Positions 2,986-51,533 of a stretch of DNA of 64,000 nt are shown here, piece after piece. Numbering within the stretch: the first letter of the stretch is position 1; every line of letters begins with the position of its first letter. The notes beneath the pieces were generated by a model. The model was not told the origin of the DNA. It did no database searches and saw nothing but the letters and a program-made list of their open reading frames with translations. The position numbers and the translations under genes were made by a program. Source of the DNA: an uncultured Lachnospiraceae bacterium (GTDB lineage: Bacteria > Bacillota > Clostridia > Lachnospirales > Lachnospiraceae); contig CAMWFQ010000007.1 in the NCBI GenBank assembly GCA_947173495.1, forward strand, positions 1 to 64,000, read 5' to 3'.

Positions 2986-3010
2986 TTTTCCTCCATTTCT
3001 GTGCTGCTTT
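2986..3010 (-). repeat. Remnant of the dispersed structured repeat (RBS end)
   Basis: In gene direction the segment AAAGCAGCACAGAAATGGAGG just before the cupin-like gene differs from the end of the 6.1-kb repeat copy by one substitution and one inserted base. The rest of the element is missing. It still supplies the GGAGG of the downstream gene. Confidence 0.55.
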
Positions 3011-3047
3011 CCTCGTTCAGCTTTCTTTCTGTCTTTCTCTTCTTTTC

Positions 3048-3848
3048 TCATTCATAAGGGTTAAAAATCTGAATAATTTTGGTGGCCTGGTCCTTGCCTC
3101 TGCGCATGCAGGAAGCCACATCCTCACCCAGACTTAATCCATAAGTAAATCCGGCTATATAGGAATCTCCTGCGCCTACGGTATTACAGATCTTTACCTT
3201 TTCCGCCTTCTCCCGATAAAAACGGGTGCCGTCATAGGCCAGACTTCCGTACTCTCCCAGCATGGCGATCACACAGCCGGCGCCTTTCCTGCTGGTCTTA
3301 ACCAGAAAGTCCCGGATATAGTCGTCCTCTTTTTCATAGGAGAAAAACGCATAGTCCAGCCAGGGCAGGATCTGATCGTTTGTCTCCAGGGTCAGACGTT
3401 TGGAAAAATCATATACCCAGATCTGTCCCGGCCTTTTCAGCTCACTGATATAGCGGTGTACCTTACACCAGCGTTCGCAGTACACAATATCAAAGGTTTT
3501 GACAAATTCCTGATCCTCCCGGGAGAGCTCGATCTCTTCCATGGCATTGCCCCTAAAGTCCAGGTGCAGGCGGTCGCCGTCCACGATGGCCATTTTGGCC
3601 ATACCCGTTGGTTTGTCGGATCTTGCCAGCACCCGGAGGGGGATTCCCCTCTCCTTCAGCGTCTCTTCCAGCGCATCCGCAAAAACATCATTTCCCAGAA
3701 TGGTCATCTCTGTGACGTCTCCGCCCAGGGCCCGGTAATTAAACGCGAAGTCAATGCTGTTGCCCGTCACATAAAACCGGTCCTGCCTGTAATAAACGTC
3801 AATACAGTTATCCGCCATTGCCAGTGTTCTTTTCATTCTGATACCCAT
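3048..3848 (-). CDS. PfkB family carbohydrate kinase (FrlD-like), second copy
   Basis: A 266-residue ribokinase-fold sugar kinase. The C-terminal signature CNTVGAGDSYIAGFTYGL holds the anion hole and the catalytic Asp of GAGD. The N-terminal half has the sugar-binding strand VTGNSIDFAFNYRALGGD, where FrlD-like kinases read GG/GN. In the FrlD branch these enzymes phosphorylate fructosamines at C6 using ATP. The match is family level, and the exact sugar is inferred from the linked deglycase, epimerases and first kinase. Two starts are possible (3848 and 3836); AGAAAGG is either too near or 13 bases away. It shares an operon with YjbQ upstream and the cupin-like gene downstream. Confidence 0.85.
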   Translation of the reverse strand: MGIRMKRTLAMADNCIDVYYRQDRFYVTGNSIDFAFNYRALGGDVTEMTILGNDVFADALEETLKERGIPLRVLARSDKPTGMAKMAIVDGDRLHLDFRGNAMEEIELSREDQEFVKTFDIVYCERWCKVHRYISELKRPGQIWVYDFSKRLTLETNDQILPWLDYAFFSYEKEDDYIRDFLVKTSRKGAGCVIAMLGEYGSLAYDGTRFYREKAEKVKICNTVGAGDSYIAGFTYGLSLGEDVASCMRRGKDQATKIIQIFNPYE

Positions 3849-3887
3849 ACCTTTCTTTCATCCGCCGCCTGGAGCGGCAGACACAAA

Positions 3888-3962
3888 GCTGCTTCTTTTT
3901 GTTGCTTCTTTCTGCTGTTTCTTTCTGCTGTTTTTCTGTTGCTTCCTGCTGCTGTCTGCTCC
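3888..3962 (-). repeat. Degenerate short tandem repeat in an intercistronic gap
   Basis: The gap between YjbQ and the kinase is low-complexity. In gene direction units like CAGCAGAAAGAA, CAACAAAAAGAA and CAGCAGGAAGCA recur about five times, purine-rich with a period near 12-13 bases. Close by lies TTTGTGTCTGCCGC, which also resembles part of the dispersed repeat. Function unknown. Confidence 0.5.
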
Positions 3963-3970
3963 GACAGCCC

Positions 3971-4405
3971 CTATGCCTCTCCCATGCAGTAAACCAGATA
4001 TTTTCTTTTTTTGATGCCGTCGTATTCACAGAAATAAATATCCGCCGCATCGCCCAGCTTCAGTTTTCCGTCAATCAGCGGCAGTACGCAGTGATTTCCT
4101 GTCAGGAGGGACTTCAGATGCCCCGGAGCATTGCCGCCGATGGTTCCGTAGGAAGGCAGGTAATGATTATGGTGAAAAGGGTACTCTGTTGGGATCAGCC
4201 TCTCTAACTGTTCCTCTATATCCTTTTCCACACAGGGAAGGCTTTCATTGATGGTAATCCCTGTAGTGGTATGCTGGGTGATCACAAAGGCAATGCCGTT
4301 TTTCACGCCGCAGCCTTCTGCAAACGCTCTGACCTGCCCGGTAATTTTGATCAGCTCCACCTCTGCATCCGCAATGACAAAAAATTCTCCTAATCTGTAC
4401 TCCAT
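3971..4405 (-). CDS. YjbQ family (UPF0047) protein
   Basis: A 144-residue protein with the family signature near the middle, GIAFVITQHTTTGITINE, and the later HNHYLPSYGTIGGNAPGHLKSLLTG plus LGDAADIYFCEYDG near the C terminus. These are full-length YjbQ features. The family is conserved and trimeric; a weak thiamin-phosphate-synthase-like activity has been reported for members, but the physiological role is unknown. The start at 4405 has GGAGG 6 bases upstream and lies one base past the amidohydrolase stop, so the two are translationally coupled. Its presence inside a sugar-amine operon suggests a linked housekeeping or detoxifying role, which is inference. Confidence 0.88.
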   Translation of the reverse strand: MEYRLGEFFVIADAEVELIKITGQVRAFAEGCGVKNGIAFVITQHTTTGITINESLPCVEKDIEEQLERLIPTEYPFHHNHYLPSYGTIGGNAPGHLKSLLTGNHCVLPLIDGKLKLGDAADIYFCEYDGIKKRKYLVYCMGEA

Positions 4406-4406
4406 C

Positions 4407-5258
4407 CTATGCCTCCCTGCCAAGAAATCTAAGCGCATTCCTGTAATAAAGCTTCTCCTTAACCTCTGCCGAAAGACCAAGCGCATCCAGCCCCTTTTTA
4501 CTTCTCACCGGACGGATCCGGGGGCTGTCCGAACCGAACATGATCTTATCCGCCAGATTATGCTCCACCCAGTATTCCCCCATGTCCTCTTTGAAGACTT
4601 TGTGATAGAGCTGCACCGGTCCGTCAAAGCTCATCAGAGCCGTGTTGGCATACAGGTTTGGATATTTGATCAGCAGAGACGCCGTCTCCTGTACCCAGGG
4701 CCAGCCGAAATGAGCCAAGCAGAAGTTGATTTCCGGGAATTTATCCGCCAGCTCCTCAAAATCCGCCGGTCTTGCATAGCGGGAATACGCCTCCTTTTCC
4801 AGACACATTCCGCTGTGAAAAATAACCGGCTTTTTGTATTGCGCACAAATACGGCAAAGAGCTTTGATTCTGTCATCATAAGGAAACATTTTCAGCTTTG
4901 CCGTGTTCAGCTTCAGTCCCATAAGTCCCAGCGTCTCAAAAGCATTCTCCAGCTGTCCGGCAGCATTCTCATTCCTTGGATCCACACCGGCAAATCCTAC
5001 AAAAAGTGCAGGCTCCATACACATCAGTTCCGCAATCTCCTCATTGGAGATCGCCGCCTGCCCCTTTTCGAAGGAACAGTCCTCGGGCAGGAGAAAAACC
5101 CGCTCAATATCCGCCAGTCTCCACTGCTTTTTCAGAAGCGCCAGGTCAGAAGGCTTCATCAGATGATAGTTCATCTCTTCGCACCGGAAGGCCAGCTTTT
5201 TTTCATCCCGGCAGATTGGCGCAAACAGCGCGGGATGGATATGTGTGTCAATGACCAT
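4407..5258 (-). CDS. Amidohydrolase family (TIM-barrel metal-dependent hydrolase)
   Basis: A 283-residue amidohydrolase-2-type protein. Metal-site motifs appear in the usual order: DTHIHP at the N terminus, VIFHSG near residue 150, LAHFGWPW near 185 and FGSDSPR near 245, which supply the two first His, two later His and the catalytic Asp. The substrate is not evident; the group includes decarboxylases, lactonases and hydrolases of small acids or amides. It sits between an FrlC-like epimerase (6 bp upstream) and YjbQ (1 bp downstream), so it belongs to the same transcript. In an Amadori-product context it might act on a side product or amide, but this is inference only. Confidence 0.85.
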   Translation of the reverse strand: MVIDTHIHPALFAPICRDEKKLAFRCEEMNYHLMKPSDLALLKKQWRLADIERVFLLPEDCSFEKGQAAISNEEIAELMCMEPALFVGFAGVDPRNENAAGQLENAFETLGLMGLKLNTAKLKMFPYDDRIKALCRICAQYKKPVIFHSGMCLEKEAYSRYARPADFEELADKFPEINFCLAHFGWPWVQETASLLIKYPNLYANTALMSFDGPVQLYHKVFKEDMGEYWVEHNLADKIMFGSDSPRIRPVRSKKGLDALGLSAEVKEKLYYRNALRFLGREA

Positions 5259-5264
5259 ACCCTC

Positions 5265-6092
5265 TCACTCCTTATAATCTCTGAACTCATCCGTATTTGC
5301 AACCAGCCACTGTACACAGTCGTCGATGGCCTTGTCCGGATCCACATAATAGTGTCTGTCAATCAGCTCGAAGCAGCATACGCCGTCATAACGGTTTCTT
5401 TTCAGATCCTCATAATACTGCTTCATGGGGAAATCTGCATGGCCCGGCACCGTATGGCCTCTGTCGTTGAAATGAACGTAAGCCATTTTATCTCCCAGGC
5501 TATGGAAATAATCGTCAATGGTCTGACCCGCAAAGGTCATCTGGTCCGTATCCACCATGCCGAGCACATTGTCAAAGCCTGTTTCCTCGATCATCCTGGC
5601 AATATCGTCGCTGTAATTGAGCACCTGCGTGGTGGTCACCTTACATTCCTCCAAAAAGAGACGGATGCCCTTTTTCTTACTGTACTCCGCCAGGAGCTGC
5701 ATGGATTCTCTGGTATTGTCCCAGGCTTCCTGCCTGGGGGCGTCAAAGTAGCCAAAGCCGATACTGATCTGTACATTGGGGCAGTCCAGATACTCCGCCG
5801 TGTCGATGGCTCTCTGATAATAACGCAGGGAAGATTCCCTGGTCTCCCTGTTCTGGGTTGCAAAATTGCAGGGGTAGGAATTGTTCTCCGGCGTAATGGC
5901 ATACACCTTCAGATTGCGCCTTCTGATCTCCTGATCCAGCTGAATCAGATCCTTTAAGGAATAGTCAAAGGCATTCAGCTGGGGAGCGCACATATACAGG
6001 TCAAACATATCAAACGGGGAACGCTCCAGTTTATCCAGATACTGCTTTGGGCTGTATCTCATATAATGTAAGGTCATCGGAATAAATTTCAT
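5265..6092 (-). CDS. Sugar phosphate isomerase/epimerase, FrlC-like (copy 1)
   Basis: A 275-residue AP-endonuclease-2-type TIM barrel. The conserved metal ligands can be read in order: Glu in FLEECKVTTT, Asp in VDTDQM, His in YVHFNDRGHTVPGH and Glu in CCFELIDRHY. The start region MKFIPMTLHYMRY and the PQLNAFDY segment match fructoselysine 3-epimerase FrlC, which interconverts psicoselysine and fructoselysine. A very similar paralogue lies just upstream (6281-7090). The start at 6092 has GAGGAAAA 5-6 bases upstream, and this site is the end of a dispersed structured repeat. Its exact sugar is unproven. Confidence 0.85.
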   Translation of the reverse strand: MKFIPMTLHYMRYSPKQYLDKLERSPFDMFDLYMCAPQLNAFDYSLKDLIQLDQEIRRRNLKVYAITPENNSYPCNFATQNRETRESSLRYYQRAIDTAEYLDCPNVQISIGFGYFDAPRQEAWDNTRESMQLLAEYSKKKGIRLFLEECKVTTTQVLNYSDDIARMIEETGFDNVLGMVDTDQMTFAGQTIDDYFHSLGDKMAYVHFNDRGHTVPGHADFPMKQYYEDLKRNRYDGVCCFELIDRHYYVDPDKAIDDCVQWLVANTDEFRDYKE

Positions 6093-6098
6093 ACTTTT

Positions 6099-6225
6099 CC
6101 TCATTTCTGCGCTGCTTTGTTGCACAAAGCCATGATATGGCTCAATCCATAAAATGGCTTAACGAGTTTGTGGCAAGCAGCGCGCAGACACAAATCTCGC
6201 GATTGAAAATTTTAATTTTCAATCT
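6099..6225 (-). repeat. Dispersed structured repeat, copy A
   Basis: An intergenic element of about 125 bp between the two epimerase genes. In gene direction it contains an AT palindrome (GAAAATTAAAATTTTC), a stem TTTGTG/CACAAA, nested inverted repeats around AAGCCAT/ATGGCTT, and an outer pair TCTGCGC/GCGCAGA. It ends in AGAAATGAGGAAAAG, giving the RBS of the downstream gene. Close copies lie near 10.2, 26.8 and 51.5 kb. Confidence 0.88.
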
Positions 6226-6280
6226 TTCTCCCTTCCGCCGCCTGGCGGTCTTTCCTAAAAAGCGCTTTACGTAAAGCTGC

Positions 6281-7090
6281 TTAACCTCTCAATACGTCGT
6301 TAATGTAAGCAATATAGGCATCTGTAGCCTGATCCGGATCCGGGAAGTATTCCCGGCTGCACAGCTCGCAGGAAATCCATCCGTCATATCCGCCCTTCAC
6401 CAGCGTGTCATAATATTCCTTCATGGGCAGTCCTCCGGTACCCGGAATGGTATGCCCGGCGTCGCTGAAATGCACAAAGCCGTATTTATCGCCCAGATTG
6501 TCAAAATAATCCTGAATGGTCTCACCTGCCAGCGCCATCTGATCCGTATCGGAAAGTCCGATCAGATTGTCCGCGTCCACCTCCCGGATAAAACGGTTCA
6601 GCTCTTTGCTTGTCACAATCAGATTGGTAGTTGTCACCTTGCAGGTTTCCAGGAAGATGGTGACGCCCTTCTTTTTGGCGTAGCGGGTCAGAAGACCGAA
6701 GGCCTCCACCTGCCTGTTCCATCCTTCCTTCGCATCTCCGTCAAAATAGCTTGAGCCCGGACACACCTGAATATGGGGAAAATCCAGAAAGGCTGCCGTA
6801 TCGATCATCCGCTGGTAATACTGCAGTGTGGAATTCCAGGTGATGGGGTTTGAGGTTGCAAAATTCACCGGATAAGCACAGTTTTCCGCCGTAAGCACAT
6901 AAGGAGTCAGATGCCTGTCCTTTATGTCGCGGCTCAGCTGGATCAGATCGGAAAGCCGGTAGTCAAAAGGGTTCAGCTGGGGAGCCGTACAGTAAATGTC
7001 CAGGCCGTCCAGCTGGGAGCTTTCCACCTTGTCCAGGTATTTCCGGATGGGATATCTTAAATAGTGATAACTCATTAATGTAAATTTCAT
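6281..7090 (-). CDS. Sugar phosphate isomerase/epimerase, FrlC-like (copy 2)
   Basis: A 269-residue TIM-barrel epimerase and close paralogue of the gene at 5265-6092. It shares PQLNPFDYRLSDLIQL, FLETCKVTTTN (Glu), LSDTDQMALAG (Asp), FVHFSDAGHTIPG (His) and ISCELCSREYF (Glu), so all expected metal ligands are present. The start at 7090 is set by AAGGAGAA six bases upstream; the 25 residues in front of it do not resemble the family. It follows the Dcu-type transporter and precedes repeat copy A. The presence of two FrlC-like enzymes suggests two stereochemically different sugar-amines enter the pathway, which is inference. Confidence 0.85.
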   Translation of the reverse strand: MKFTLMSYHYLRYPIRKYLDKVESSQLDGLDIYCTAPQLNPFDYRLSDLIQLSRDIKDRHLTPYVLTAENCAYPVNFATSNPITWNSTLQYYQRMIDTAAFLDFPHIQVCPGSSYFDGDAKEGWNRQVEAFGLLTRYAKKKGVTIFLETCKVTTTNLIVTSKELNRFIREVDADNLIGLSDTDQMALAGETIQDYFDNLGDKYGFVHFSDAGHTIPGTGGLPMKEYYDTLVKGGYDGWISCELCSREYFPDPDQATDAYIAYINDVLRG

Positions 7091-7194
7091 TGCAGTTCTC
7101 CTTATTGAGAGCATCCTGCACAGACTTCTATGCAGGATGCCTGTGTCATAAACTCCCGTTTTCAAAAATGCCGTTTACTGTCATTGCAAAATCA

Positions 7195-8523
7195 TTACAG
7201 AATCACGCAGGCCAGTCCGTAGGCTACTGCAGCATCCACTACCGCCATAACCAGAGAAGGAAGCAGGTAACTGGTATTTACCACATACTTTCCGATCTTT
7301 GTAGTTCCCGCACTGTCAAATGCGATAGCGGCAAGGGCTTCGGAAGCGGTAGGAAGCAGGAAATGAGAACCTACCAGAACCCATCCGGCAATCAGTATGG
7401 GGGTATTGATGCCCAGGGCAATCCCGAGAGGCACAACAATAGCGGTTGTGGAAGCCTGAGAGGTTGTAATGTTAGCCACCAGATAACAGGCGATAATGAA
7501 AATCCAGGGATACTGGTTGGTAAAGCCGGATACCACTTCTGTCAGGAAAGCGGACTGTGAGCCGATGAAAATATTAACCATCCAGCACAGGCCGATTACC
7601 ATAACGCAGGCAAAAACACCTGACTTAAATACCTGAGTGTCCAGAACCGCATCGGGCTTTTTGTCCTTCATGATCAGACAGATCACCGTGGCGATTAGCA
7701 ACATGAAAATCTGAATAATATCGGTCATTCCCATCTGACTTCCGCTTTCCAGCATGGGCCGCAGAGCAGGAACCGCCCCCAGAACAACGATACAGAGCAT
7801 ACCAACCAGGAAGATCACAACAGAGAGCTTTGCTTCTTTGCTGAATCTTGAGAAATCTACCGTTTTTTCCTCATGCTTCTCAGAGAGCACCAGAGTTCCT
7901 TCCGCCACACGGCGCTGGAATTCAGGATCGTCCACCAGCTCTTTGCCCTTCTTAAGCATGATTACACCGGACATAATGGAACCGCACAGAGTGGCGGGAA
8001 TGGCAATCAGCAAAAGCTGTACCAGGCTGACGCCTGCAGACTCTTCCATGAAAGCGATCATTGCCGCCATCGCCGCTGCCAGCGGAGTGGCGCACACCGC
8101 ATTCTGACAGGAAACAATGGACGCCGCAATGGGACGCTCGGGACGGATCTTGTTTTCAATGGCGATCTCATTGATAATGGGAAGGATACTCCATACAATA
8201 TGGCCGGTACCTGTACAGAAAACAAAGATCCAGGTGATCAATGGTGCAAGAACGGTTACAGACTTCGGATATTTCCGAAGCAGCTTTTCGGCCACAGCCA
8301 CCAGAAAATCCACTCCTCCAATGGCCTGCATGGCGCCGCCCGCAATCACCACACACAGAATGATTCTCAGAACCGTAAGGGGCGGATCGGACATCTGCGC
8401 CTTAAACACAAATGTGAAAATAAAAGCGCCCACACCGCCGGCCAGCGTCAGGAAAAAGCCTCCCCTCCTGAGCCCCCAGAAGATCAGCAGCAACATCACT
8501 GCCAGTTCAATCCAAAACAACAT
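7195..8523 (-). CDS. Dcu-type anaerobic C4-dicarboxylate transporter family protein
   Basis: A 442-residue membrane protein with about ten to twelve hydrophobic segments. The layout FWIELAVMLLLIFWGLRRGG, LQ/MQAIGGVDFLVAVAEKLLRKYPK, FCTGTGHIVWSILPIINEIAI, NKIRPERPIAAS and the C-terminal LLPTASEALAAI closely follow DcuA/DcuB. Dcu proteins exchange or import aspartate, fumarate and malate. In Salmonella the fructose-asparagine transporter FraA has, as I recall, been placed in the Dcu group, so a glycated acidic amino acid is a plausible substrate here. It lies between the racemase (26 bp) and epimerase copy 2. The N terminus is hydrophobic with no separate signal peptide. Confidence 0.85.
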   Translation of the reverse strand: MLFWIELAVMLLLIFWGLRRGGFFLTLAGGVGAFIFTFVFKAQMSDPPLTVLRIILCVVIAGGAMQAIGGVDFLVAVAEKLLRKYPKSVTVLAPLITWIFVFCTGTGHIVWSILPIINEIAIENKIRPERPIAASIVSCQNAVCATPLAAAMAAMIAFMEESAGVSLVQLLLIAIPATLCGSIMSGVIMLKKGKELVDDPEFQRRVAEGTLVLSEKHEEKTVDFSRFSKEAKLSVVIFLVGMLCIVVLGAVPALRPMLESGSQMGMTDIIQIFMLLIATVICLIMKDKKPDAVLDTQVFKSGVFACVMVIGLCWMVNIFIGSQSAFLTEVVSGFTNQYPWIFIIACYLVANITTSQASTTAIVVPLGIALGINTPILIAGWVLVGSHFLLPTASEALAAIAFDSAGTTKIGKYVVNTSYLLPSLVMAVVDAAVAYGLACVIL

Positions 8524-8549
8524 AACTCATACCTCCTCTGTATACAATT

Positions 8550-9254
8550 TTATATTTTTCTGACAAGCGCGCCTCCAGCATAAGAGATAGCAGCTCTGGC
8601 CAGTATCTCAGCGGGGTCCGCCAGAGGACATCCCTCCAAAACAATCCCCTTTAATGCAATGGGCAGCTCCGTACATCCCAGAATGACGGCCTGCGCGCCT
8701 TGTGTCCGTAAATGGTTGAGAATTGCAGAGACCGGAATGCCGGTAATATCAGGCCGTCCGGCCTTGACCCTTTCATAGATGATCCGCATCACCTGTCTCT
8801 GTTCTTCCTCTGACGGATATACCGTCCTGATTCCCTGCTCTCCCAGCACTTTTTCATAAACGCCGGATTGTATCGTTCCATCTGTAGCTAGGACGCCTGC
8901 GCAGGAAATCTGCTTCTTTTTCAGACAGAGCGCTGTCTCTCCCGGCATGTGCAGCATCGGCACATCCAGGTACGAACAAAGCTCTTCATAAAAATAGTGA
9001 GCGGTATTGCAGGGCATAAGCAGTATCTGAGCCCCCATCTCCTCCAGCCTGAGCGCGCTCCTGATCATTTCAGGCAGCGGATCTTCCCCGCCGCCCAGGA
9101 TCGCTGCTGTCCGGTCGGGTATATTCGTGTTACAATCTATACAGACATGAATATGCTCCTGATCACGGGAAGCTCTTGTATTTGCGACAATCTTATTTGC
9201 CAGATCGTATGTTGCAAGAGGCCCCATACCGCCTACAATTCCAACGATTTTCAT
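8550..9254 (-). CDS. Aspartate/glutamate racemase family protein
   Basis: A 234-residue cofactor-independent racemase-fold protein. The two catalytic cysteines appear in LLMPCNTAH (about residue 81) and VILGCTELP (about residue 193), and the N terminus has the typical KIVGIVGGMGPLATYD. Such enzymes racemise aspartate or glutamate, sometimes with broad specificity. The start overlaps the upstream PfkB kinase stop as ATGA, so they are translationally coupled. Its place beside a deglycase and kinase suggests it processes the amino acid released from a glycated substrate, or a D-amino acid moiety. That is inference, but this linkage is the strongest clue to the substrate. Confidence 0.87.
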   Translation of the reverse strand: MKIVGIVGGMGPLATYDLANKIVANTRASRDQEHIHVCIDCNTNIPDRTAAILGGGEDPLPEMIRSALRLEEMGAQILLMPCNTAHYFYEELCSYLDVPMLHMPGETALCLKKKQISCAGVLATDGTIQSGVYEKVLGEQGIRTVYPSEEEQRQVMRIIYERVKAGRPDITGIPVSAILNHLRTQGAQAVILGCTELPIALKGIVLEGCPLADPAEILARAAISYAGGALVRKI

Positions 9255-10162
9255 AACCTGCCGGATTGCTTTCTGTTATCAATAATCCGCCCCTGCAGAG
9301 GGACGCCGTATCCGAAAGCCCCTTCCTCACAGCACACCTCTGCTGCAAAGGCCGCGCCGGCTTTCATTGCCTCTACCAGCACACCTGACAGATCCACACT
9401 GCCATCCAGACTGATCTGCCCCGAAACGCTGCGCTTGAGCACATAGGCCAGGAAAGTGGCAAAATAAGAATCGCCGGCTCCCATGGTGTCGATCACATTT
9501 TCCGCCTTTACCGCTTTGGCGTAATAGTATATTCCCCTGTAAAGCAGCCAGGATCCCTCTTCCCCGATGGTCCCCAGCACAATGGGAACGCCCAGATCAG
9601 CCGCCTTTTTCATTTCCGCCTCCCGGGTTTTGTCATCCAGATGAGCGCAACTCATCAGTGCGATCTGAATATGGGGACAGATCTGTTTCAGATACTCGTC
9701 CGTCCAGCGGAGGGAAAAGTCAAAGGCTACCGGCACGCCGCAGGATGCCACGGCAGAGAGCTCCTCTTCTATGTATGCATTTAAGTTTGTATAAACCAGA
9801 TCAAAGCCTTTGATATAGGCAAAGTCTTCCTCCGTAAAGGAATAGGGATGCTCTTTGGCTACACCGCCCTTATTGGAACCGATAAACACCCTGTCCGCCC
9901 CATCCAGCGTAATACAGGCAAAGCCGTTCTCCCCTTCATAGTAACGGCAATGACTGGTATCCACCTGCAGCTTCTGAAGCGTCCCTCTGACACAGTCAGC
10001 CGCCTCATCAGATCCGAACTTCCCGAGAAATGCCGCCTGGACACCGTTCCGCTGGGCATAGACACAGGTGTTTACACATTGCCCGCCCGGATACATTTTG
10101 CTTCGGGAAAGATATTTATCGCATACATTATCCCCAATCGCCAGTATTTTTGCTTTTCTCAT
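9251..10162 (-). CDS. PfkB family fructosamine-type kinase (FrlD/FraD-like), first copy
   Basis: A 303-residue ribokinase-fold kinase. It starts AKILAIGDNVCDKYL with the family's sugar-binding YPGGQCVNTCVYAQRNG and ends with the catalytic ENVIDTMGAGDSYFATFLAYVL. FrlD and FraD phosphorylate fructoselysine or fructose-aspartate at the C6 hydroxyl, making the substrate for the SIS deglycase. Here it follows that deglycase and is coupled to the racemase by a 4-bp overlap. The start codon at 10162 lies after GAGGG at the end of dispersed repeat copy B. Differs clearly from the second kinase at 3048-3848, so the two probably have different substrates. Confidence 0.88.
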   Translation of the reverse strand: MRKAKILAIGDNVCDKYLSRSKMYPGGQCVNTCVYAQRNGVQAAFLGKFGSDEAADCVRGTLQKLQVDTSHCRYYEGENGFACITLDGADRVFIGSNKGGVAKEHPYSFTEEDFAYIKGFDLVYTNLNAYIEEELSAVASCGVPVAFDFSLRWTDEYLKQICPHIQIALMSCAHLDDKTREAEMKKAADLGVPIVLGTIGEEGSWLLYRGIYYYAKAVKAENVIDTMGAGDSYFATFLAYVLKRSVSGQISLDGSVDLSGVLVEAMKAGAAFAAEVCCEEGAFGYGVPLQGRIIDNRKQSGRL

Positions 10163-10167
10163 GTCTT

Positions 10168-10277
10168 ACCCTCATTTCTGCGCTGCTTTGTTGCGCAAAG
10201 CCCTGAATGGCTTAACAAGTTTGTGGATGCAGCGCAGACACAAACTTGCAGAGGAAAGATTTGAAAAATCTTTCACT
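10168..10277 (-). repeat. Dispersed structured repeat, copy B
   Basis: About 110 bp between the deglycase and kinase genes. It carries the same modules as copy A in the same orientation: an AT-rich inverted repeat (GAAAGATTTTTCAAATCTTTC), TTTGTGTCTGCGC, AAGCCATTCAGGGCTTT and CAACAAAGCAGCGCAGAAATG. The AT palindrome sequence differs from copies A and D but still pairs, which looks compensatory. Confidence 0.85.
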
Positions 10278-10296
10278 CTTACCCCTTCCTTCTTCA

Positions 10297-11307: not shown

Positions 11308-11368
11308 CTCCTGATTACCTCCTTTGGTTTTTACTCGTATTGTTTTGTATTAATTTGTTCTGAAATGT

Positions 11369-11397
11369 ATTTTATTGTAAATGATACAATATGTCAA
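11369..11397 (-). promoter_or_regulatory. Promoter of the ten-gene minus operon
   Basis: On the minus strand TTGACA (11397-11392), a 17-base spacer and TAAAAT (11374-11369) form a near-consensus sigma-A promoter about 60 bp upstream of the deglycase start. The -10 region overlaps ATGTATTT, a half-site like those at the GntR gene. Confidence 0.7.
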
Positions 11398-11497
11398 CGT
11401 ATATTTCCTTGTTTTTTATGATTTATTTAATTTTTATAAATTTTATCTGTATTTTTTGTACAAATTTGTTAATTTTTTAGTTTTGTCATGTTCTTTC

Positions 11498-11527
11498 TTG
11501 ACATCATATTTTTTATCGTGTTATGTT
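11498..11527 (+). promoter_or_regulatory. Candidate promoter of the BtpA/FGGY/HAD operon
   Basis: TTGACA at 11498-11503 and TATGTT at 11522-11527 are separated by 18 bases. A better -10 word, TATAAT at 11533-11538, lies a few bases further and may be used instead. It faces away from the minus promoter across an AT-rich 285-bp intergenic region. Confidence 0.5.
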
Positions 11528-11532
11528 ATTAG

Positions 11533-11552: not shown

Positions 11553-11592
11553 ATTAACATCATCGCTTTCAGGCAAAAGGAGGAATCTTATC

Positions 11593-26728: not shown

Positions 26729-26837
26729 CTCTGCAAGTTTGTGTCTGCGCGTTGCTTGCCACAAACTCGTTAATCCATTTTATGGATTTAGCCATATTAT
26801 GGATTTGCGCAACAAAGCAGCGCAGAAATGAGGAAAA
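26729..26837 (+). repeat. Dispersed structured repeat, copy C
   Basis: This is the plus-strand copy, in the same orientation relative to its downstream gene as the others. Modules: TTTGTGTCTGCGCGTTGCTTGCCACAAA, CATTTTATGG..CCATATTATGG and TTTGCGCAACAAAGCAGCGCAG, ending with AAATGAGGAAAAATATG. The initial AT palindrome of copies A and D is missing. Confidence 0.88.
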
Positions 26838-26839
26838 AT

Positions 26840-27742
26840 ATGCATAAAAAGAAATGGTTTGTCATTCGTTTTCTCACGCCGGCAATGCTTTGTCTGCTGG
26901 TTATTTTTCTCTATCCCATGGTAAGAACCGTCCTGATGAGCTTTCACAAAGTGGGCTTTGTCACCGACAGCATGAAGGAATGGAAATTTGTCAGACTGGA
27001 CAATTACGTCAAGCTGATGACCAGTCCGCTCTTCCGGCAGTCTCTCGTCAACATCCTGAAAATATGGCTGATCGGCGGCGTGGTTATTCTGGGTCTTGCC
27101 ATGCTCTATTCCGTGATCATCACATCCGGTATCAAGGGCAAAAATTTCTGGCGCTCCATGCTTTATCTGCCCCACATTATCAGCTCTGTTGCGCTGGCTA
27201 CCATGTGGCTTCAATATGTATTCGACAATCAGTACGGACTGTTAAAGCGCCTCTTTACCTTTCTCTACTGGGACGCTATGGCGCAGTTTCAATGGACTGC
27301 ACCGGAAAATCTCTTCCTCTCCATGATGATCGCCTACGGCTATGCGGGTGTGGGCTTCTACATGCTGATCATGGTGGCCGGTATCGACGGCATCAGCGAA
27401 GATTATTATGAGGCTTCCCGGATTGAGGGCGCCGGAATGGTGAAGCAGTTTTTCTATATCACTCTTCCCATGTTAAAGGACATCATCAAACGGACCATTA
27501 TTCTGTATTCTGCGGCGGCTGCCGGATTTTTCGTGTATTCCACGCTGTTTTCCTTCAATATGGAAAACGCAACGGTGACCCCCATGGTCTACATGTATGA
27601 GGTGGTATTCGGCTCCAGCATCGGAACCACCGCAGAAGATCTGAACGTGGGCGCCGGCGCGGCGGCAGGCGTTCTGATCATGGCTCTGGTACTGATCGTA
27701 AATGCGGTGCTAAACCGCCTGATTCCCACAGAGAGTGAATAG
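26840..27742 (+). CDS. ABC transporter sugar permease (UgpA/MalF-type)
   Basis: A 300-residue permease with six membrane segments. The N terminus (KWFVIRFLTPAMLCLLVIFLYPMVRTVLMSF) is the first, and the EAA loop reads EDYYEASRIEGAGMVKQFFYITLPML. It forms the membrane channel with the next gene product and takes up oligosaccharide from the binding proteins. The start at 26840 has GAGG six bases upstream; that site comes from dispersed repeat copy C. No ATPase gene is present in the locus, so a shared MsmK/UgpC-type ATPase elsewhere is expected. Confidence 0.92.
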   Translation: MHKKKWFVIRFLTPAMLCLLVIFLYPMVRTVLMSFHKVGFVTDSMKEWKFVRLDNYVKLMTSPLFRQSLVNILKIWLIGGVVILGLAMLYSVIITSGIKGKNFWRSMLYLPHIISSVALATMWLQYVFDNQYGLLKRLFTFLYWDAMAQFQWTAPENLFLSMMIAYGYAGVGFYMLIMVAGIDGISEDYYEASRIEGAGMVKQFFYITLPMLKDIIKRTIILYSAAAAGFFVYSTLFSFNMENATVTPMVYMYEVVFGSSIGTTAEDLNVGAGAAAGVLIMALVLIVNAVLNRLIPTESE

Positions 27743-43734: not shown

Positions 43735-43773
43735 GTGGTATCCCTCTCTTTATGTTCCATTTCGTTCCAATCT

Positions 43774-43834
43774 ACTATACCACATAATTACACAAAAAAG
43801 CAATTGTGAAAGGGAACAAAGAAAACATGTTCCA
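43774..43834 (-). promoter_or_regulatory. LacI gene promoter and candidate operator
   Basis: TTGCTT (43803-43798), an 18-base spacer and TATAGT (43779-43774) form a minus-strand promoter. AAAACATGTTCCA at 43822-43834 is the inverse of the site at 42560-42572; a weaker GGAAC-type pair lies at 43752-43768. Confidence 0.5.
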
Positions 43835-43891
43835 TATATGCAATTTGTATCTGCCCGCCAAAAAAGTGGAACAGAATACAGGAGCGCCCTG

Positions 43892-45262: not shown

Positions 45263-45552
45263 AGTAACCTCCATGCTGCCAATACCTGCAAATTTGGGCG
45301 TCAGCACAATATTTGCAAAACGAACAAGGTCGTAACTCCTTTTTTTGACATATTCTGCGTCCCTGTCATCATACTATATTCCCTCTGAACCTGTCAATGT
45401 AACGATTCTGGCTGCCGGTTGAGAAATCCGTGGTTTTATGGTATATTTAGTCATCAGATACTTTTCACAGGACGGTCAGAGTTTACGCCTGTCCGGGCTG
45501 TGGCTTTGCCAGGCCTGCATAAAACAGAAATGAAATCAGGGAGGAATGATAT

Positions 45553-47121
45553 ATGCACTTAAGGGATCTGCTGCCCTTCGACAACATCGCTATTCAATGC
45601 CACAATGACCCCGACGCGGACGCGATCGCCAGCGGCTACGGTGTTTATCTTTATCTGCGCAGTCACGCAAAAAAGGTCCGCCTGATCTACGGCGGAACTC
45701 CTGTCCAAAAGGCCAATCTTGTTTTAATGATTGCAGAACTGGGCATTCCCATAGAGCATACTGCGTCGCTGGATCAGGAACCGGATCTGCTGTTGACGGT
45801 AGACTGCCAGTACGGCGAAAAGAATGTGCAGCAATTTTCCGGCAAAACCATTGCCGTAATCGACCACCATATGGTCAGAAATCCGGGCTCCCTCCCACAG
45901 CTGCGGGAGGTACGGAGCAATTACGGCGCCTGTTCTGTGATCGTATGGGATCTGCTGTGTGAAGCGGGTTTCAACGTATCTGCAAACGAAAATCTTTCCA
46001 CTGCTCTGTACTACGGCCTGTTTATGGACACAAACCGGATGCAGGAGCTTCGTCATCCAAAGGACCGGGATCTGCGGGATGAACTGGAGCCGGTATGCAG
46101 CCAGGGAAAGCTCTTTCGGTTTCAAAACTGCAATCTGTCGCTGAACGAGCTGAAGCTCACGGGTCAGGCGCTGGCCGGCTACGATTACTATGAATACAGC
46201 GAGGGCCATGGTTTTGCCATTGTGGGCGCGGAAGAATGCGATCCCAATATCCTGGGGATCATCAGCGACATGCTCGTTGAGGTGGACATAATTGACGTCT
46301 GTGTTGTGTACTGTATGCAGAATAAAGGGGTGAAGCTCTCTGTCCGAAGCTGTATCAGAGAAACGCGGGCCGATGAGCTGGCAGGCTTCCTTACCAATGG
46401 CCTGGGGAACGGCGGTGGACATATGCGCAAATCCGGCGGTTTCCTGGAAAAAGACGCCTTAATTGCAGAATATAGTCGGATATACGGTCACAAACCGGCA
46501 CAGACAAGAATCGGTGCCCGGCGGATTATCGCCGCACGTCTGGAGCAGTATTTCCTGAATCAGGATGTGATTCATCCCGGCTCCAAAGACGCGCCTGATT
46601 TATCGGAGGATGCACTTTACCAGAAAAAGCGGCTGACCATCGGTTACGTGCGGGCAACAGATATGTATCCGGCCGGAACCCGGGTAGATGTGCGGATGCT
46701 GGAGGGTGACCAGGGATTTTCTGTGGAGGAAGACACCTATTTTATGATCGGTGTCGAGGGCGAAGTTTATATCAGTAAAGAATCGGTATTTCGGGCGAAC
46801 AACGAAGCTGTTCCCGCCCCTTATCAGTTCCGGGGAGAATATGCTCCCCTCATCCACAAGGCGGTCCGCATGAAGGGCCTTGATGCAGAAGTTCTGGAGC
46901 CCAAAAGCCTGAAGGATTATGCCAGAGCCTGCATAACAAAGCCGGGACGCCGGATTCATGCACGTCCCATTGAGCGCATCACCAAGGTCGCCGCTCCCTG
47001 GAGCGACAGCTATTTTCTGGGGCTGCCAGGAGACTACCTGGCAGCCCGGGAAGACGACCTGACGGATATTTACGTCATCAAACGGGATATTTTTCTGAAA
47101 ACATACGAGCCTGTATGCTGA
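45553..47121 (+). CDS. DHH family phosphoesterase
   Basis: A 522-residue protein. The N-terminal DHH domain has NDPDADAIASGYG (a variant of DHDAD), LLLTVDCQYG and AVIDHHMV; the DHHA1 substrate motif is GNGGGHMRKSGG near residue 290. The family includes RecJ, nano-RNases and cyclic-di-AMP phosphodiesterases. A C-terminal part of about 200 residues with SYFLGLPGDYLAAREDDLTDIYVIKRDIFLKTYE is not part of the usual fold. It stands alone, followed by a convergent serine hydrolase gene. RBS GGGAGGA. The exact substrate cannot be read. Confidence 0.88.
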   Translation: MHLRDLLPFDNIAIQCHNDPDADAIASGYGVYLYLRSHAKKVRLIYGGTPVQKANLVLMIAELGIPIEHTASLDQEPDLLLTVDCQYGEKNVQQFSGKTIAVIDHHMVRNPGSLPQLREVRSNYGACSVIVWDLLCEAGFNVSANENLSTALYYGLFMDTNRMQELRHPKDRDLRDELEPVCSQGKLFRFQNCNLSLNELKLTGQALAGYDYYEYSEGHGFAIVGAEECDPNILGIISDMLVEVDIIDVCVVYCMQNKGVKLSVRSCIRETRADELAGFLTNGLGNGGGHMRKSGGFLEKDALIAEYSRIYGHKPAQTRIGARRIIAARLEQYFLNQDVIHPGSKDAPDLSEDALYQKKRLTIGYVRATDMYPAGTRVDVRMLEGDQGFSVEEDTYFMIGVEGEVYISKESVFRANNEAVPAPYQFRGEYAPLIHKAVRMKGLDAEVLEPKSLKDYARACITKPGRRIHARPIERITKVAAPWSDSYFLGLPGDYLAAREDDLTDIYVIKRDIFLKTYEPVC

Positions 47122-47137
47122 CATTTTTCCTCTGGAT

Positions 47138-47166
47138 GCGAGCAGGGAAAGTCTCCCCCTACTCGC
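47138..47166. terminator. Bidirectional hairpin (hairpin family copy 2)
   Basis: GCGAGCAGGGA (47138-47148) pairs with CCCTACTCGC (47157-47166) with one mismatch, between the convergent DHH and serine hydrolase genes. It overlaps the last codons of the latter. Confidence 0.6.
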
Positions 47167-48337
47167 TTTCCTCTGTCGCTCCGTAAGCTGCCATTTTAAG
47201 TCTCCGCACAAAGGGTGTGGTTCCTGCTCCACACCTCTGCATGAAATACAGAAATACCAGATCCTCCTGCATGCTTACAGACATATAGTTTCCTGTCCAT
47301 CCGTCCCATCCAAACTCTCCCGGCGGCGTGCTCTCACAGGCCAGGGTCTGATCTGTCAGCACACGCATCAGACAGCCGTAACCATAGCCTTTTAAGGCAT
47401 CCCAATTAAAGGTTCTCTGCTGCTGTCCGCTCAGATGATTCTGCGCCATAAACGCCACCGTCTTGGGTCCCAGAATACGTCTGCCCTGCCAGATTCCCTT
47501 ATGTGTCAGCATGGATGCGAAATGCGCATAATCATCCAACGTGGACACCAGTCCTGCGCCGCCGGATTCAAAGGCCACATCTTCCCCGTAATATTCTCCC
47601 AGATGGCTTCCTTCAAAGGGTACCAGCTTTCCATCCTCCGCTTCCATATATCTCTGCGCTCTTCTTTCCCGCTTGCTTTGAGGTACAAAGAAACCGGTAT
47701 CCTTCATATCCAGAGGCTCAAATAATTCTTCCTTCAAAAACCTTCCAAATCGTTTTCCGGATACTGCCTCCACGATCCCGCCAAGCACATCCGCCGAAAA
47801 GCCATACTGCCATTCTGCTCCGGGCTGAAAACACAACGGTACAGAAGCGATCCCTTTTACTACTTCCTGCGTATCCACCCTCTCCCCGGCGGCCATACGC
47901 TCCAGTATGGGATCCAATATCTGCTTCATACGTCTGCCCGGTTCTGTCAGCTCTCCGGGATACACGATCCCTGATGTCATATTCAGCAGATCGAACACTG
48001 TAACCTTTCTGTCAGGAGAGACCTCTCCTGTTCCTTCCACCCAGACCTTCTGCCCTTCAAAGCAGGGAAGATATTCCGATACAGGGTCTTTGAGATCCAG
48101 TTCTCCGCGCTCTGCCAGGATCATCACGGCTGCAGATGTAATGGGCTTGGACATGGAATAAAGATGAATGATGGTATCCCGCTTCATCAAATAGCCCTTC
48201 TCCTCATCCGCATACCCGAAGGCATTATAATAAAGCTCCTTTCCCCTGTGCAGTACCAGGGCGCTCGCCCCTTTTACCCGGCCGGACTCTACCTCCCGGC
48301 TGATCAGCCTGTCCATTGTTTTCTTAAGATCGTACAT
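47159..48337 (-). CDS. Serine hydrolase of the beta-lactamase/class C (EstB) family
   Basis: A 392-residue protein without a signal peptide. The nucleophile Ser and its Lys are in LYSMSKPITSA, the Tyr is in WQYGFSADVLGGIVEA and later residues include GGAGLVSTLDDYAHFASML. Family members are esterases, peptidases or D-amino-acid-type hydrolases, and this cytoplasmic one is probably an esterase. It lies downstream of the beta-propeller gene and may be in the same transcript, 73 bp later. Its substrate is unknown; deacetylation of an imported glycan is possible. Confidence 0.85.
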   Translation of the reverse strand: MYDLKKTMDRLISREVESGRVKGASALVLHRGKELYYNAFGYADEEKGYLMKRDTIIHLYSMSKPITSAAVMILAERGELDLKDPVSEYLPCFEGQKVWVEGTGEVSPDRKVTVFDLLNMTSGIVYPGELTEPGRRMKQILDPILERMAAGERVDTQEVVKGIASVPLCFQPGAEWQYGFSADVLGGIVEAVSGKRFGRFLKEELFEPLDMKDTGFFVPQSKRERRAQRYMEAEDGKLVPFEGSHLGEYYGEDVAFESGGAGLVSTLDDYAHFASMLTHKGIWQGRRILGPKTVAFMAQNHLSGQQQRTFNWDALKGYGYGCLMRVLTDQTLACESTPPGEFGWDGWTGNYMSVSMQEDLVFLYFMQRCGAGTTPFVRRLKMAAYGATEESE

Positions 48338-48410
48338 ACCTTTTCCGCTCCTTCCTTTCTCCCCTTATACTATGGCAGGCACGGAAATATGTCAATTACA
48401 TTTCCCCCTT

Positions 48411-50429
48411 TCAAAGCACCAGCTCATATACACATCCCAGACGATCCTTCATACCTACCGCGATTCTCGTTCCATCCGGCGAAACGGCAATACAGCAGGG
48501 CTCACAGCTGACTCCTATGCTTTCCTCACCGGCGCCATCCTCAAAATGGTTCCAGCCCAGCAGCTGCAGTCCGCTTTCGCTGTCGTAAACAAAGATCATT
48601 CCAAGGCTGTCGGGATCTCCCGCCACACCGTACACCTTCCTGCCGTCAGGGGATGTTGCCATATCATGTACCTCTCCGCCATCGCAGACCGATCCCAGTC
48701 CAAAGACCTTCCCCTCTCTGATCAGCCCCAGCATGCCGTCCTTTGTACCCACAAGCATACTTCCATCCGCCAGACTCGCACAGGCTGTGGCCACAGCAAG
48801 ATACTGCCGCCCCGGCTGAGCCGGAAGAGAATATCCTGCAACATTCCATTCCGCCACATTTCCATTCTTCACCGGAATATCTCCGTCCTTTTCCTGCTTT
48901 AAAATTTCTCCGTCTCTGACGGTGACACAGATTCCGCCCTCCGCTCCGATCCGTGCCAGAACATTTCCCTCATCGTTGTAGGAGACGGCCAGGACCTGAG
49001 ACCCTTCTGTGCCGAAGGTTTTCCAGAGCTTGCACACATACCGCTCCTTCCCCACGCGGAAGGGATTTTCGCTCAGATAACGGCTATCCCTTGCACACTG
49101 GTCAAGGAAGGCTCTGTAGGAACTGCTGTCCGCCATAAAATCTCCCCGGTACAGCTTCTCAATCTCAGGATCCTGCTTCATGGCATTCCAGAATATGATC
49201 ACATCCTGACACAATTCCCGGGGTTCTTTCGCCCGCTTCCTTACCTCGGCAAGATCGATGGACACAACCCCCGGGCAGTCCGGGCCGTGATTGGTGTCGG
49301 ACAGATACAGCACATCCTCCCGGATAAAAATGTTTTCCGCAGCTGTCTGGATCCGGTTCGGCACTCCGATCAGTCCCATATCCTCCGGCATGGCGCCGGG
49401 ACTCATGATATCCAGGCAGAACAGCCGAAGACCTGTGGGATCGCTGCCACAGCCATACCATAGCTTCCCGTATTGATCAAAGGCCATTCCCAGGATCATG
49501 GCATAGGGTATTCTTTCTTCCAGCACTTCCGGAAGAACAGGCCCCAGCATTTCCAGCTGATTGGTTTTGGGATCATATACAAAAAATCTGCTGTTGATAT
49601 GAACCGTAAAATACAGACGTCCATCGGTTCCGGTTGCCGAATAGGCCATCATGTTCCGGTTGACGCCGCAGTTGGGCTTTCCCTTCGCCCGGATCTTTGC
49701 AGCATCCTCCGGCACGTTTACCCCCATATATTCCGGCACAAGGGTGGTGGTGTTGAATCTCCACATGGCGCCTCCCCGGGTTGTAAAGTAAATATTTCCG
49801 TCGGAAGCCTTCGCCAGGTGATACACGCCGAACTCCGTACACTGGCCGAAATCTTTCACGCTGCGGTCTTTTAAGTCAAAGAGATAAGCATGTCCGCGTA
49901 TATAGGTGGTAAAGAACAGGCAGTTATGCGCGGCCAGATATTTTGCGCCGTATATGGTATCCCTGGGAACCGGAATTCCCAGATCCTCCACCTTGCCGGT
50001 ATCCGGATCATAAATGATCACATTAGAGCCCTTATATCCTTCCCACAGATGGGAATAGTAGGCTTCCGGCATCCAGCAGGGATGGGAAGGCGCACTGGCT
50101 GTGGTGTGCGTGGTCATAATCAGTCTGCCATCCGGCATGGGATTGATAGAGGTATGTATTTTACTGGGTCTTATCGTCCTTGGGTAGACCACCAGACTTT
50201 TTTCCATATCAAAGCAGAGTTTCATCTCGTCTTCTTCCGGCAGATATTCATAAAGCTTTACATACTCGGGAAATGTCCCTTCTGCACAGCAGGAGATGAA
50301 ATGGCGTCCCTGGGGCGTGATGCAGTAATCCCATGCGGCATTATAGCCGGGCGCCTCAATAAAACGCTGCCTTACGGCGCTCTGGGGAATCATCCCCAGA
50401 TATTCTTCAGCGGTGTATGTGTGTTTCAT
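48411..50429 (-). CDS. Beta-propeller protein of unknown function in an oligosaccharide import locus
   Basis: A 672-residue cytoplasmic protein, without signal peptide. Repeated blade-like strands appear, for example SNVIIYDPDTGKVEDLGIPVP, GHAYLFDLKDRSVKDFG, SRFFVYDPKTNQLEMLG and SPDGRKVYGVAGDPDSLGMIFVYDSE, with about seven or more blades. TTHTTASAPSHPCWM and other His residues could bind metal. Intracellular propeller enzymes include oligogalacturonate lyases and related polysaccharide lyases, but no catalytic signature is certain here. It is downstream of the ABC importer by 134 bp, so it likely acts on the imported compound. The start has AAAGGAGAA. Confidence 0.6.
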   Translation of the reverse strand: MKHTYTAEEYLGMIPQSAVRQRFIEAPGYNAAWDYCITPQGRHFISCCAEGTFPEYVKLYEYLPEEDEMKLCFDMEKSLVVYPRTIRPSKIHTSINPMPDGRLIMTTHTTASAPSHPCWMPEAYYSHLWEGYKGSNVIIYDPDTGKVEDLGIPVPRDTIYGAKYLAAHNCLFFTTYIRGHAYLFDLKDRSVKDFGQCTEFGVYHLAKASDGNIYFTTRGGAMWRFNTTTLVPEYMGVNVPEDAAKIRAKGKPNCGVNRNMMAYSATGTDGRLYFTVHINSRFFVYDPKTNQLEMLGPVLPEVLEERIPYAMILGMAFDQYGKLWYGCGSDPTGLRLFCLDIMSPGAMPEDMGLIGVPNRIQTAAENIFIREDVLYLSDTNHGPDCPGVVSIDLAEVRKRAKEPRELCQDVIIFWNAMKQDPEIEKLYRGDFMADSSSYRAFLDQCARDSRYLSENPFRVGKERYVCKLWKTFGTEGSQVLAVSYNDEGNVLARIGAEGGICVTVRDGEILKQEKDGDIPVKNGNVAEWNVAGYSLPAQPGRQYLAVATACASLADGSMLVGTKDGMLGLIREGKVFGLGSVCDGGEVHDMATSPDGRKVYGVAGDPDSLGMIFVYDSESGLQLLGWNHFEDGAGEESIGVSCEPCCIAVSPDGTRIAVGMKDRLGCVYELVL

Positions 50430-50563
50430 TCAGATTCTCCTTTCACGGACGCTTTTTTCCTGCACTGTCCGTCAGATCTTTTTGCAGGCAGCGTAGATTA
50501 CTTTTTTTGCCGGTGCGCGGCTTTCCTGCCGATACAGACCTCTCCTGCCGGCATCATACATGT

Positions 50564-51418
50564 TTAGCCCTTTACGCCTCCCACATTCATCCCCTGAACG
50601 ATATATTTCTGTCCGATCATGAAGATCATCAGGGTGGACAAAAGGGCAATGACCAGCGCTGCAAACAGAGTTCCCCAGTCGGTGGCATACCGTTGAACCT
50701 CATACAGATGCGCCATAGCCACCGCCAGTGTCTTCTTCTTTTCATCCGTCAGCATCACCATGGCCGTCATATATTCATTCCAGGAACCGATGGCCGAAAA
50801 CATACAGACCGTAACGATTCCCGGCCTGGCCAGCGGTACTACTACATTTATCAGAATACGGAACGGACCGCACCCGTCGATCATTGCCGCTTCCTCGTAA
50901 TCTCTTGGGATCTTGCTTAAGAATCCGGAGAGAAGAAAGACTGGAAACGCCACGCCTGTAGCCGCGTACAGCAGCGCCAGCGCCGCCCGGCTGTTCAGAA
51001 GATGAAGATTTCTCATCAATAGAAACAGCTGGATCAGGGTAGAGGAATCCGGGATAAACAGCAAAGCCATGTATACCTTCAGAATCAGCTTCGCGCCGGG
51101 AAAACGGTACCGCACCAGACAGTAGGTACAGGGGATGGTGAGAAGTGCCAGAATCGCTGTGGATACAATCACAATTCCAATGGAATTCAGGATGCTGACC
51201 CCCAGATTGGTCTCTGAGATGGCACGGATATAATTATCCCACATCAGATGCTCCGGCAGCTTCATGGCGTCTCCCAAAAACTCTGTATTTGTTTTAAAAG
51301 AGGAATAAAGGTTCCAGATCAGCGGGTAGATCATAACCGCAGATAACAGGATCATGATAACCCTGAGGATCCAGGACACCAGAATTCTTTTCCATTTGCC
51401 CGCTCGTTTTCCAACCAT
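50564..51418 (-). CDS. ABC transporter sugar permease (MalG-type)
   Basis: A 284-residue permease with six membrane segments; EAA loop KIPRDYEEAAMIDGCGPFRILINVVVPLARPG and C-terminal GQKYIVQGMNVGGVKG. The start at 51418 has GGGGA six bases upstream, supplied by the end of dispersed repeat copy D; an ATG four codons before is part of that element. Pairs with the permease gene upstream. Confidence 0.92.
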   Translation of the reverse strand: MVGKRAGKWKRILVSWILRVIMILLSAVMIYPLIWNLYSSFKTNTEFLGDAMKLPEHLMWDNYIRAISETNLGVSILNSIGIVIVSTAILALLTIPCTYCLVRYRFPGAKLILKVYMALLFIPDSSTLIQLFLLMRNLHLLNSRAALALLYAATGVAFPVFLLSGFLSKIPRDYEEAAMIDGCGPFRILINVVVPLARPGIVTVCMFSAIGSWNEYMTAMVMLTDEKKKTLAVAMAHLYEVQRYATDWGTLFAALVIALLSTLMIFMIGQKYIVQGMNVGGVKG

Positions 51419-51421
51419 ACT

Positions 51422-51533
51422 TATCCCCATTTCTGCGCTGCTTTGTTGTGCAAAGCCATGAATGGCTTAACGAGTTTGTGGCAAGCAACGCGCAGACACA
51501 AATCTCGCGATTGAAAATTTTAATTTTCAATCT
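51422..51533 (-). repeat. Dispersed structured repeat, copy D
   Basis: In gene direction: AAAATTAAAATTTTCAATC palindrome, GCGAGATTTGTGTCTGCGCG, TTGCTTGCCACAAACTCG, TTAAGCCATTCATGGCTTTG, then CAACAAAGCAGCGCAGAAATGGGG. Nearly identical to copy A except for an 18-base difference in the middle. Confidence 0.88.

Follow-up and report, generated by a model that had tools for sequence, protein, structure and literature searches.

REP/BIME and IS200/IS605-derived palindromes are hairpin-forming sequences that stand in a fixed orientation to a short target motif and leave no target duplication; to our knowledge, neither a Shine-Dalgarno (SD)-start target nor a donated SD belongs to the features of REP. 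In preQ1, SAM-II type, and ribosomal-protein leaders, an H-type pseudoknot is found whose 3' strand abuts the SD.

The element considered here occurs as four copies and one remnant in a single 64,000-nucleotide stretch of DNA (the window) from an uncultured Lachnospiraceae bacterium, whose assembly is referred to as the source genome. The above features of REP/BIME are shared by the element, the difference being that no Y1 transposase was found in the source genome or in three related ones (G241, G209, and G317). Also held in common, in this case with BOX, RUP, SPRITE, ERIC, and Correia repeats as presented in excerpts of PMC3049150, are a length of about 100-200 bp, a structured, multi-copy, and intergenic nature, possible residence within operons, and a presumed lack of autonomy. 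According to the same excerpts, pneumococcal repeats are over-represented between convergent genes and MITEs are defined by target duplications (PMC3049150); unlike either, the element appears to occupy the SD-start gap in one orientation, carries its own predicted SD and pseudoknot, and shows no target duplication outside tandem copies. The pseudoknots of preQ1, SAM-II type, and ribosomal-protein leaders have a comparable SD-abutting fold, from which the element is set apart by up to about 120 copies, by unrelated downstream genes, and by apparent mobility; it matches no Rfam family. The mobile/repeat sequence candidates (MRSC) of an intergenic survey of 50 genomes are structured multi-copy motifs that are thought to be selfish (excerpts of PMC11109978), with inconsistent orientation and nearby transposases, whereas orientation and spacing are nearly fixed in the element; "Lachno" does not occur in the main text of that survey. 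No description of the element was found in the literature searched, where excerpts of PMC11109978, PMC3049150, and PMC6429828 treat other repeats and motifs, and it looks like a mobile translation-start cassette of an undescribed kind, present in certain gut bacteria in up to about a hundred copies.

Window Copies and Element Architecture

A full copy would comprise, in order, a P0 hairpin starting with (AAGA)NTG-AAA, the stem P1, a variable P3, the 3' strand of P2, and an SD of the form AATGRGG (Table 1). A preliminary description of the window had reported four similar elements and a remnant, each ending in the SD of the downstream gene, and this account is borne out by inspection of the sequence and by the R2 covariance model: copies A-D lie where they had been placed (E 8.8e-21 to 1.2e-17), the remnant falls within a match at 2993-3073 (E 5.5e-4) and retains the 3' end alone (AGCAGCACAGAAATGGAGG, then a start), and all five terminate in the SD of the gene that follows. 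As had likewise been reported, the leading palindrome of copy B is exchanged for a different sequence that still pairs; P0 occurs in A and B types and, elsewhere, in other pairing forms, while P3 is modular and sometimes absent. Two ABC permeases and a kinase are recovered by Pfam among the downstream genes, but the "cupin-like" assignment is not, the gene after the remnant being without a Pfam match. Copy C (26729-26769) joins a B-type 5' arm (TGCAAG) to an A-type loop and 3' arm (CTCG), which leaves a mismatch in P1.

Table 1. Predicted features of the element copies in the window and of the genes that follow them.
Feature	Position	Strand	Remark
Copy A, host SD region (AAGGGAGAAA)	6225..6234	-	directly 5' of element
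Copy A, P0, A-type AT hairpin GATTGAAAATTAAAATTTTCAATC	6201..6224	-	
Copy A, P1	6163..6199	-	arms 6199-6189 / 6172-6163; family pairing tests
Copy A, P1 loop	6188-6173	-	contains 5' strand of pseudoknot helix P2
Copy A, variable central hairpins (P3) and P2 3' strand	6106..6162	-	family pairing test (P2)
Copy A, P2 3' strand AAAGCAGCGCAGA	6118-6106	-	
Copy A, element-borne SD region AATGAGG	6099..6105	-	start codon from 6092
Gene after copy A, xylose-isomerase-like TIM barrel (PF01261)	5268..6092	-	Pfam
Copy B, whole	10168..10278	-	B-type P0 10278-10251; start codon from 10162
Copy B, P1, then P3, P2 3' strand, SD	P1 10249-10239 / 10225-10216	-	
Gene after copy B, PfkB-family carbohydrate kinase (PF00294)	9254..10162	-	Pfam
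Copy C, whole, without P0	26732..26837	+	start codon from 26840
Copy C, P1, P3, P2 3' strand, SD	P1 26732-26743 / 26760-26769; P2 3' strand within 26816-26826	+	
Gene after copy C, ABC permease (PF00528)	26840..27739	+	Pfam
Copy D, whole	51422..51532	-	A-type P0 51532-51509; start codon from 51418
Copy D, P1, then P3, P2 3' strand, SD	P1 51507-51497 / 51480-51471	-	
Copy D, host SD region AGGAGCTGACAA	51544-51533	-	
Gene after copy D, ABC permease (PF00528)	50567..51418	-	Pfam
3'-end remnant (AGCAGCACAGAAATGGAGG region)	2993..3010	-	precedes gene 2574-2984
Gene after remnant	2574-2984		no Pfam match

Copy Number and Distribution

The family numbers about 110-120 copies in the source genome. 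A 3' motif (AGCRGCGCAGAAATG, at most one mismatch) has 111 matches in its 4.58 Mb and the reversed pattern has none; the count does not hang on this motif alone, since a 5' motif (TTTGTGTCTGCGC, at most one mismatch) gives 84 matches against 7 for its reversed control. The covariance model returns 120 matches at E<=0.01, and a chance origin of the window copies is excluded. Grouped within 200 bases, the matches listed fall into 116 places, of which 63 have both motifs, 33 the 3' motif only, and 20 the 5' motif only; by eye, several of these 20 are complete elements whose 3' end has diverged, three or more are chance occurrences, and inspection of the hits with a single motif revealed no longer element bearing both ends. 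The same 62-nt 5' half, one base apart, is common to 17 copies, a near-identity from which recent spread follows. At L077, L095, L106, and L132, copies are arranged in tandem or nested with a spacing of about 97 nt, the second beginning directly after the SD of the first, and at L133 an apparently part-inverted P1 adjoins a normal 3' part. In genome G514 (L301), four copies lie in about 7 kb, each before similar neighbouring genes, and this similarity makes gene duplication carrying the element probable, rather than four insertions.

Beyond the source genome, the element was detected at E<=0.001 in at least 29 of 299 Lachnospiraceae genomes (at least 28 of 298 sampled genera; lower bounds, with the best 15 candidates per genome scored). 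A survey of the order, likewise a lower bound with the best 12 candidates per genome scored, found at least 24 of 392 genomes positive, 21 of them in Lachnospiraceae, together with one strong match (G030, E 6.9e-13) and two weak ones outside that family. Between 7 and 120 model matches per genome were obtained in 18 chosen element-bearing genomes, for each of which up to 150 candidates were scored. The exact 3' motif is present in 11 of 40 sampled genomes (source included), all 11 in the genus, and in none of the 16 sampled genomes of other families. When a 19-base pattern was searched for in named genomes, 22 stretches matched and 16 of these lay before a start codon (by eye); the six that did not, five of them outside Lachnospiraceae, look like chance matches.

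Covarying Helices and a Predicted Pseudoknot

P1 is composed of TTTGTG/CACAAA and a variable lower stem, and P2 of the P1 loop with GCAGCGCAGA before the SD. As P1 and P2 cross, the predicted fold is an H-type pseudoknot; TTTGTG/CACAAA and TCTGCGC/GCGCAGA had been read as "nested" inverted repeats, a reading that has to be given up. The helices were assessed through duplex energies of matched versus swapped strands, relatedness remaining after swapping; the P1 and P2 tests left out nine weak, truncated, or antisense members of the 103 aligned matches, and duplicates were merged. Over 85 distinct pairs, P2 has an energy of -16.8 matched versus -15.0 swapped (z=-10.4; 0 of 10000 permutations), with z=-9.2 on the 45 off-consensus tails, and the lower and upper stems of P1 yield z=-9.7 and z=-3.9, the latter with 2 of 10000 permutations as low. 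An alternative local 3' hairpin, considered as a switch partner for P2 and doubling as an internal negative control for the swapping test, was rejected for want of covariation (z=-1.4 for all tails, -0.3 for off-consensus tails). The cognate loop outperforms the average other loop in 37 of the 45 off-consensus tails and is worse in 8; relative to the GC-rich consensus tail on the same loop, these tails are better in 18 cases, tied in 1, and worse in 26. Clear double changes in P2 are seen at L224, L279, L272, L239, and L232, and for six copies the z of single-strand folds, which are blind to pseudoknots, ranges from -1.6 to -5.1.

The structured RNA foreseen in the preliminary description, for which covariation had been named as a check, is thus upheld: P1 and P2 covary, and the strand comparisons show what is best modelled as a covarying H-type pseudoknot immediately before the new SD. 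Rfam has no match above the gathering threshold in the window; at E<=5, a search of six loci gave three matches below threshold, each of them in L224 but off the element. At L070 and L043 the P1 loop is seemingly inverted (TGCAGCGCA, not TGCGCTGCA), an arrangement that should break P2.

Position Between an Old and a New SD

Nearly all copies examined are shown to lie in one orientation, with a 3' end that provides a predicted SD at normal start-codon spacing. In the loci fetched from the source genome, which derive from about 100 of the 111 motif places listed and contain 122 matches at no more than 2 mismatches, a start codon followed by an open frame of 50 codons or more lies 11-13 nt past the A of GAAATG in 97 matches and at another distance within 3-39 nt in 10; by eye, the 15 matches with none include seven chance occurrences inside genes, two upstream tandem members, and one that runs off the stretch, while in the remaining five the frame is short or broken or a start is missing at that point. 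Defined through the 5' half instead, 75 distinct hits were obtained, 68 of them with the P1 3' arm, and 66 of the 68 are then followed by an SD and a start under a loose rule that 12 of 85 control windows and 5 of 85 opposite-strand windows also pass (controls not de-duplicated); the arrangement is retained in the two exceptions, L089 and L105, where the frame is very short or AGG replaces ATG. Among 103 matches from related genomes and some of the source genome's own copies, a start codon follows 10-14 nt past the A of GAAATG in 93. It follows at 9-15 nt, with a frame of at least 62 codons, in all 27 of a further set, from which 4 of 31 matches (weak antisense or partial) had been set aside, in which L300 and L307 are one place, and of which 4 rows come from one G514 region. 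A fixed orientation before start codons, also named at the outset as a check, accordingly holds in the source and related genomes.

At the opposite end, most copies with an intact 5' end are shown to be directly preceded by what reads as the gene's own SD. GGAG, GAGG, or AGGA stands 4-16 nt upstream of the P0 TTG/GTG, beginning most often at -11 to -9, in 51 of 65 copies with intact P0 (a total that includes the minus strand of L089, an antisense read of the palindrome). In a consensus alignment, an SD is found within 14 nt upstream of 53 of 66 intact-5'-end copies versus 11, 8, and 5 of 66 in control windows, 13 copies being without a clear upstream SD; the element therefore sits between the old SD and the start codon. 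No clear enrichment is seen in 5'-truncated copies (14 of 44 versus 10, 4, and 8 in controls). Flanking 10-mers of 55 non-tandem copies matched at 5.91 versus 5.98 when swapped, so that no target duplication is seen, and the new SD is taken as the element's own because old and new SDs are no more alike than swapped pairs; in four tandem loci, unlike in single copies, the SD sequence is identical on both sides. Insertion between SD and start with donation of a second SD is the key feature that the preliminary description lacked.

Orthologous loci in congeners suggest that the element is a new insertion. The source genome carries it at leuC, whereas 28 of 29 genus loci read with an uninterrupted SD-ATG (G001, TTTTTGCAGGAGGTAAAAATC-ATG; source genome, TTTTTGCAGGAGGAGATAA-element-TTATG); at trpB, 17 of 19 loci are without it, the exceptions being the source genome and, with a different copy, G007 (G012, CACAGAAACGAGGTATGAAA-ATG; source genome, CACAGAAAAGAGGTTATAA-element-AAATG). 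Both comparisons point to insertion within the gap from SD to start. Orthologues are occupied sporadically, most of those examined lacking the element. Among 28 leuD loci, the element is present in the source genome; by eye, G045 (L154) and G044 (L174) hold in the same SD-start gap a related but different-looking hairpin element, similar in P0 and/or P1 and different at the 3' end.

Interpretation and Competing Explanations

The family is probably a short interspersed element that amplifies in copy number with the ribosome-binding site (RBS) as its niche, that is, a selfish or tolerated mobile RNA leader that replaces RBSs, as far as genome comparison can tell. Its spread would be that of a mobile element, selfish or close to neutral, for which the SD/start region serves as the target, and it would be tolerated because the gene receives a working RBS. 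The NTG-AAA at its 5' edge would face the old SD and the new SD would face the old start codon; ribosomes may start at the old SD, traverse the element, and stop near the new SD (coupling). It is put forward more tentatively, as a proposition somewhat short of an even chance, that the element targets the SD-start region in such a way that the old SD drives the element's own 5' NTG and a new SD is gated by the pseudoknot, the starts of about 100 genes having been rewritten and RBS remnants left behind, whereby RBSs and translational control would evolve by insertion. AGAAANGRGG around the new SD appears to resemble the extended complement of the 16S tail. Since in the mRNA the pseudoknot would fall within or beside the 30S footprint, each insertion probably retunes the translation of one gene, often within an operon; many copies are probably inside operons, as in 55 of 108 copies a frame of 80 codons or more on the same strand ends no more than 150 nt upstream. 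If this reading is right, RBSs can be an insertion niche and whole gene sets can gain a structured translation leader by mobile spread, and a natural experiment is at hand in which one pseudoknot stands before about a hundred unrelated genes, with element-free orthologues as controls.

A mobile, largely tolerated element is favoured here over its main rival, translational control through the pseudoknot, although the two could hold simultaneously. According to this rival, the SD is exposed or masked when a protein, small RNA, or metabolite binds the pseudoknot, and copies were recruited into a large regulon for their usefulness, an account that appears unlikely, if far from negligible. It accommodates the covarying pseudoknot that abuts the SD, the near-constant orientation and spacing, an architecture common across genera, and, in some genomes, matches before core genes (L20-like, RNase III-like, and glycyl-tRNA-synthetase-like starts, by eye). 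Against it, the genes downstream genome-wide are of many kinds (leuC, leuD, trpB, purine genes, proB, ABC permeases, regulators, and more, by eye), and no single pathway or evident common function emerged among them; this variety, together with the sporadic occupancy of orthologues (1 of 29 leuC, 2 of 19 trpB), argues against one regulon. Copy number, moreover, varies within the genus (0 to 65 exact 3' motifs per genome; 7 to 120 model matches across the nine members searched), and the near-identical copies imply recent spread. Nevertheless, as the fold is retained across genera, either the element or its host probably benefits from it, and strict neutrality may not be correct.

Two options had been put forward in the preliminary description, a mobile element of the MITE/REP-like kind and one that controls translation. 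What endures of this pair is a structured RNA of fixed orientation and evident spread (near-identical copies, empty orthologous sites); the MITE/REP-like option loses its target duplication (55 non-tandem copies) and its REP/IS200-IS605 machinery (no Y1 in the source genome), and the control option keeps its covarying structure by the SD but has to contend with many downstream gene kinds and with orthologues that mostly lack the element.

That the element is an IS200/IS605- or REP-type single-strand MITE, with the SD (GGRGNAA) as target or cleavage motif and a Y1 (HuH) transposase acting in trans, is very unlikely. Its fixed orientation beside a short target motif, the hairpins near its ends, the 3' end that mimics the target, and the lack of target duplication outside tandems would all suit such a MITE; Y1_Tnp is, however, missing from the source genome (0 matches, 97% complete assembly) and from G241, G209, and G317, which have 43, 43, and 26 element matches, a Y1 transposase is encoded in 8 of 16 element-bearing relatives, TnpB occurs in just 2 of 7 genomes tested and not in the source genome, and a DNA motif alone predicts insertions at non-genic SD-like sites, none of which appeared among the matches examined. 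Least likely of all is a retro-element, in which a reverse transcriptase would turn the RNA back into DNA with priming close to the start codon, in the manner of target-primed reverse transcription. The RNA-level fold, the junction at the SD/start, a host SD directly at the break of several 5'-truncated copies (L121, L062, L111, and L004), and two RVT_1 matches in the source genome would fit. On the other side, truncated copies as a group have no clear SD enrichment, 5' loss is also expected from selection to keep the SD, and RVT_1 occurs in 6 of 10 element-bearing genomes, with none in G218, G317, G023, and G001, while 9 of 10 congeners that lack the exact 3' motif encode it. Accordingly, 5' truncation was dropped as a mark of reverse transcription, and Y1 transposase, TnpB, and reverse transcriptase were each rejected as a consistent mobiliser, each being missing from some high-copy genomes.

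Reading Frames Within the Element

An NTG at SD spacing recurs at the 5' edge of the element. A coding role for the mini-ORF that it opens was considered and rejected, as the frame through P1 differs between A- and B-type copies, and so do the peptides; neither peptide nor frame of the uORF is conserved, and the openness of its frame relative to the other two is partly trivial because TTGA and AAATTAA give stops there. At the 3' end, the ATG in GAAATGRGG opens at least 50 codons in 53 of 122 matches and is often in frame with the gene (window 26828-26840, many copies), which calls for caution in annotation, as open reading frame calls are thereby mis-extended at the N-terminus and predicted proteins lengthened.
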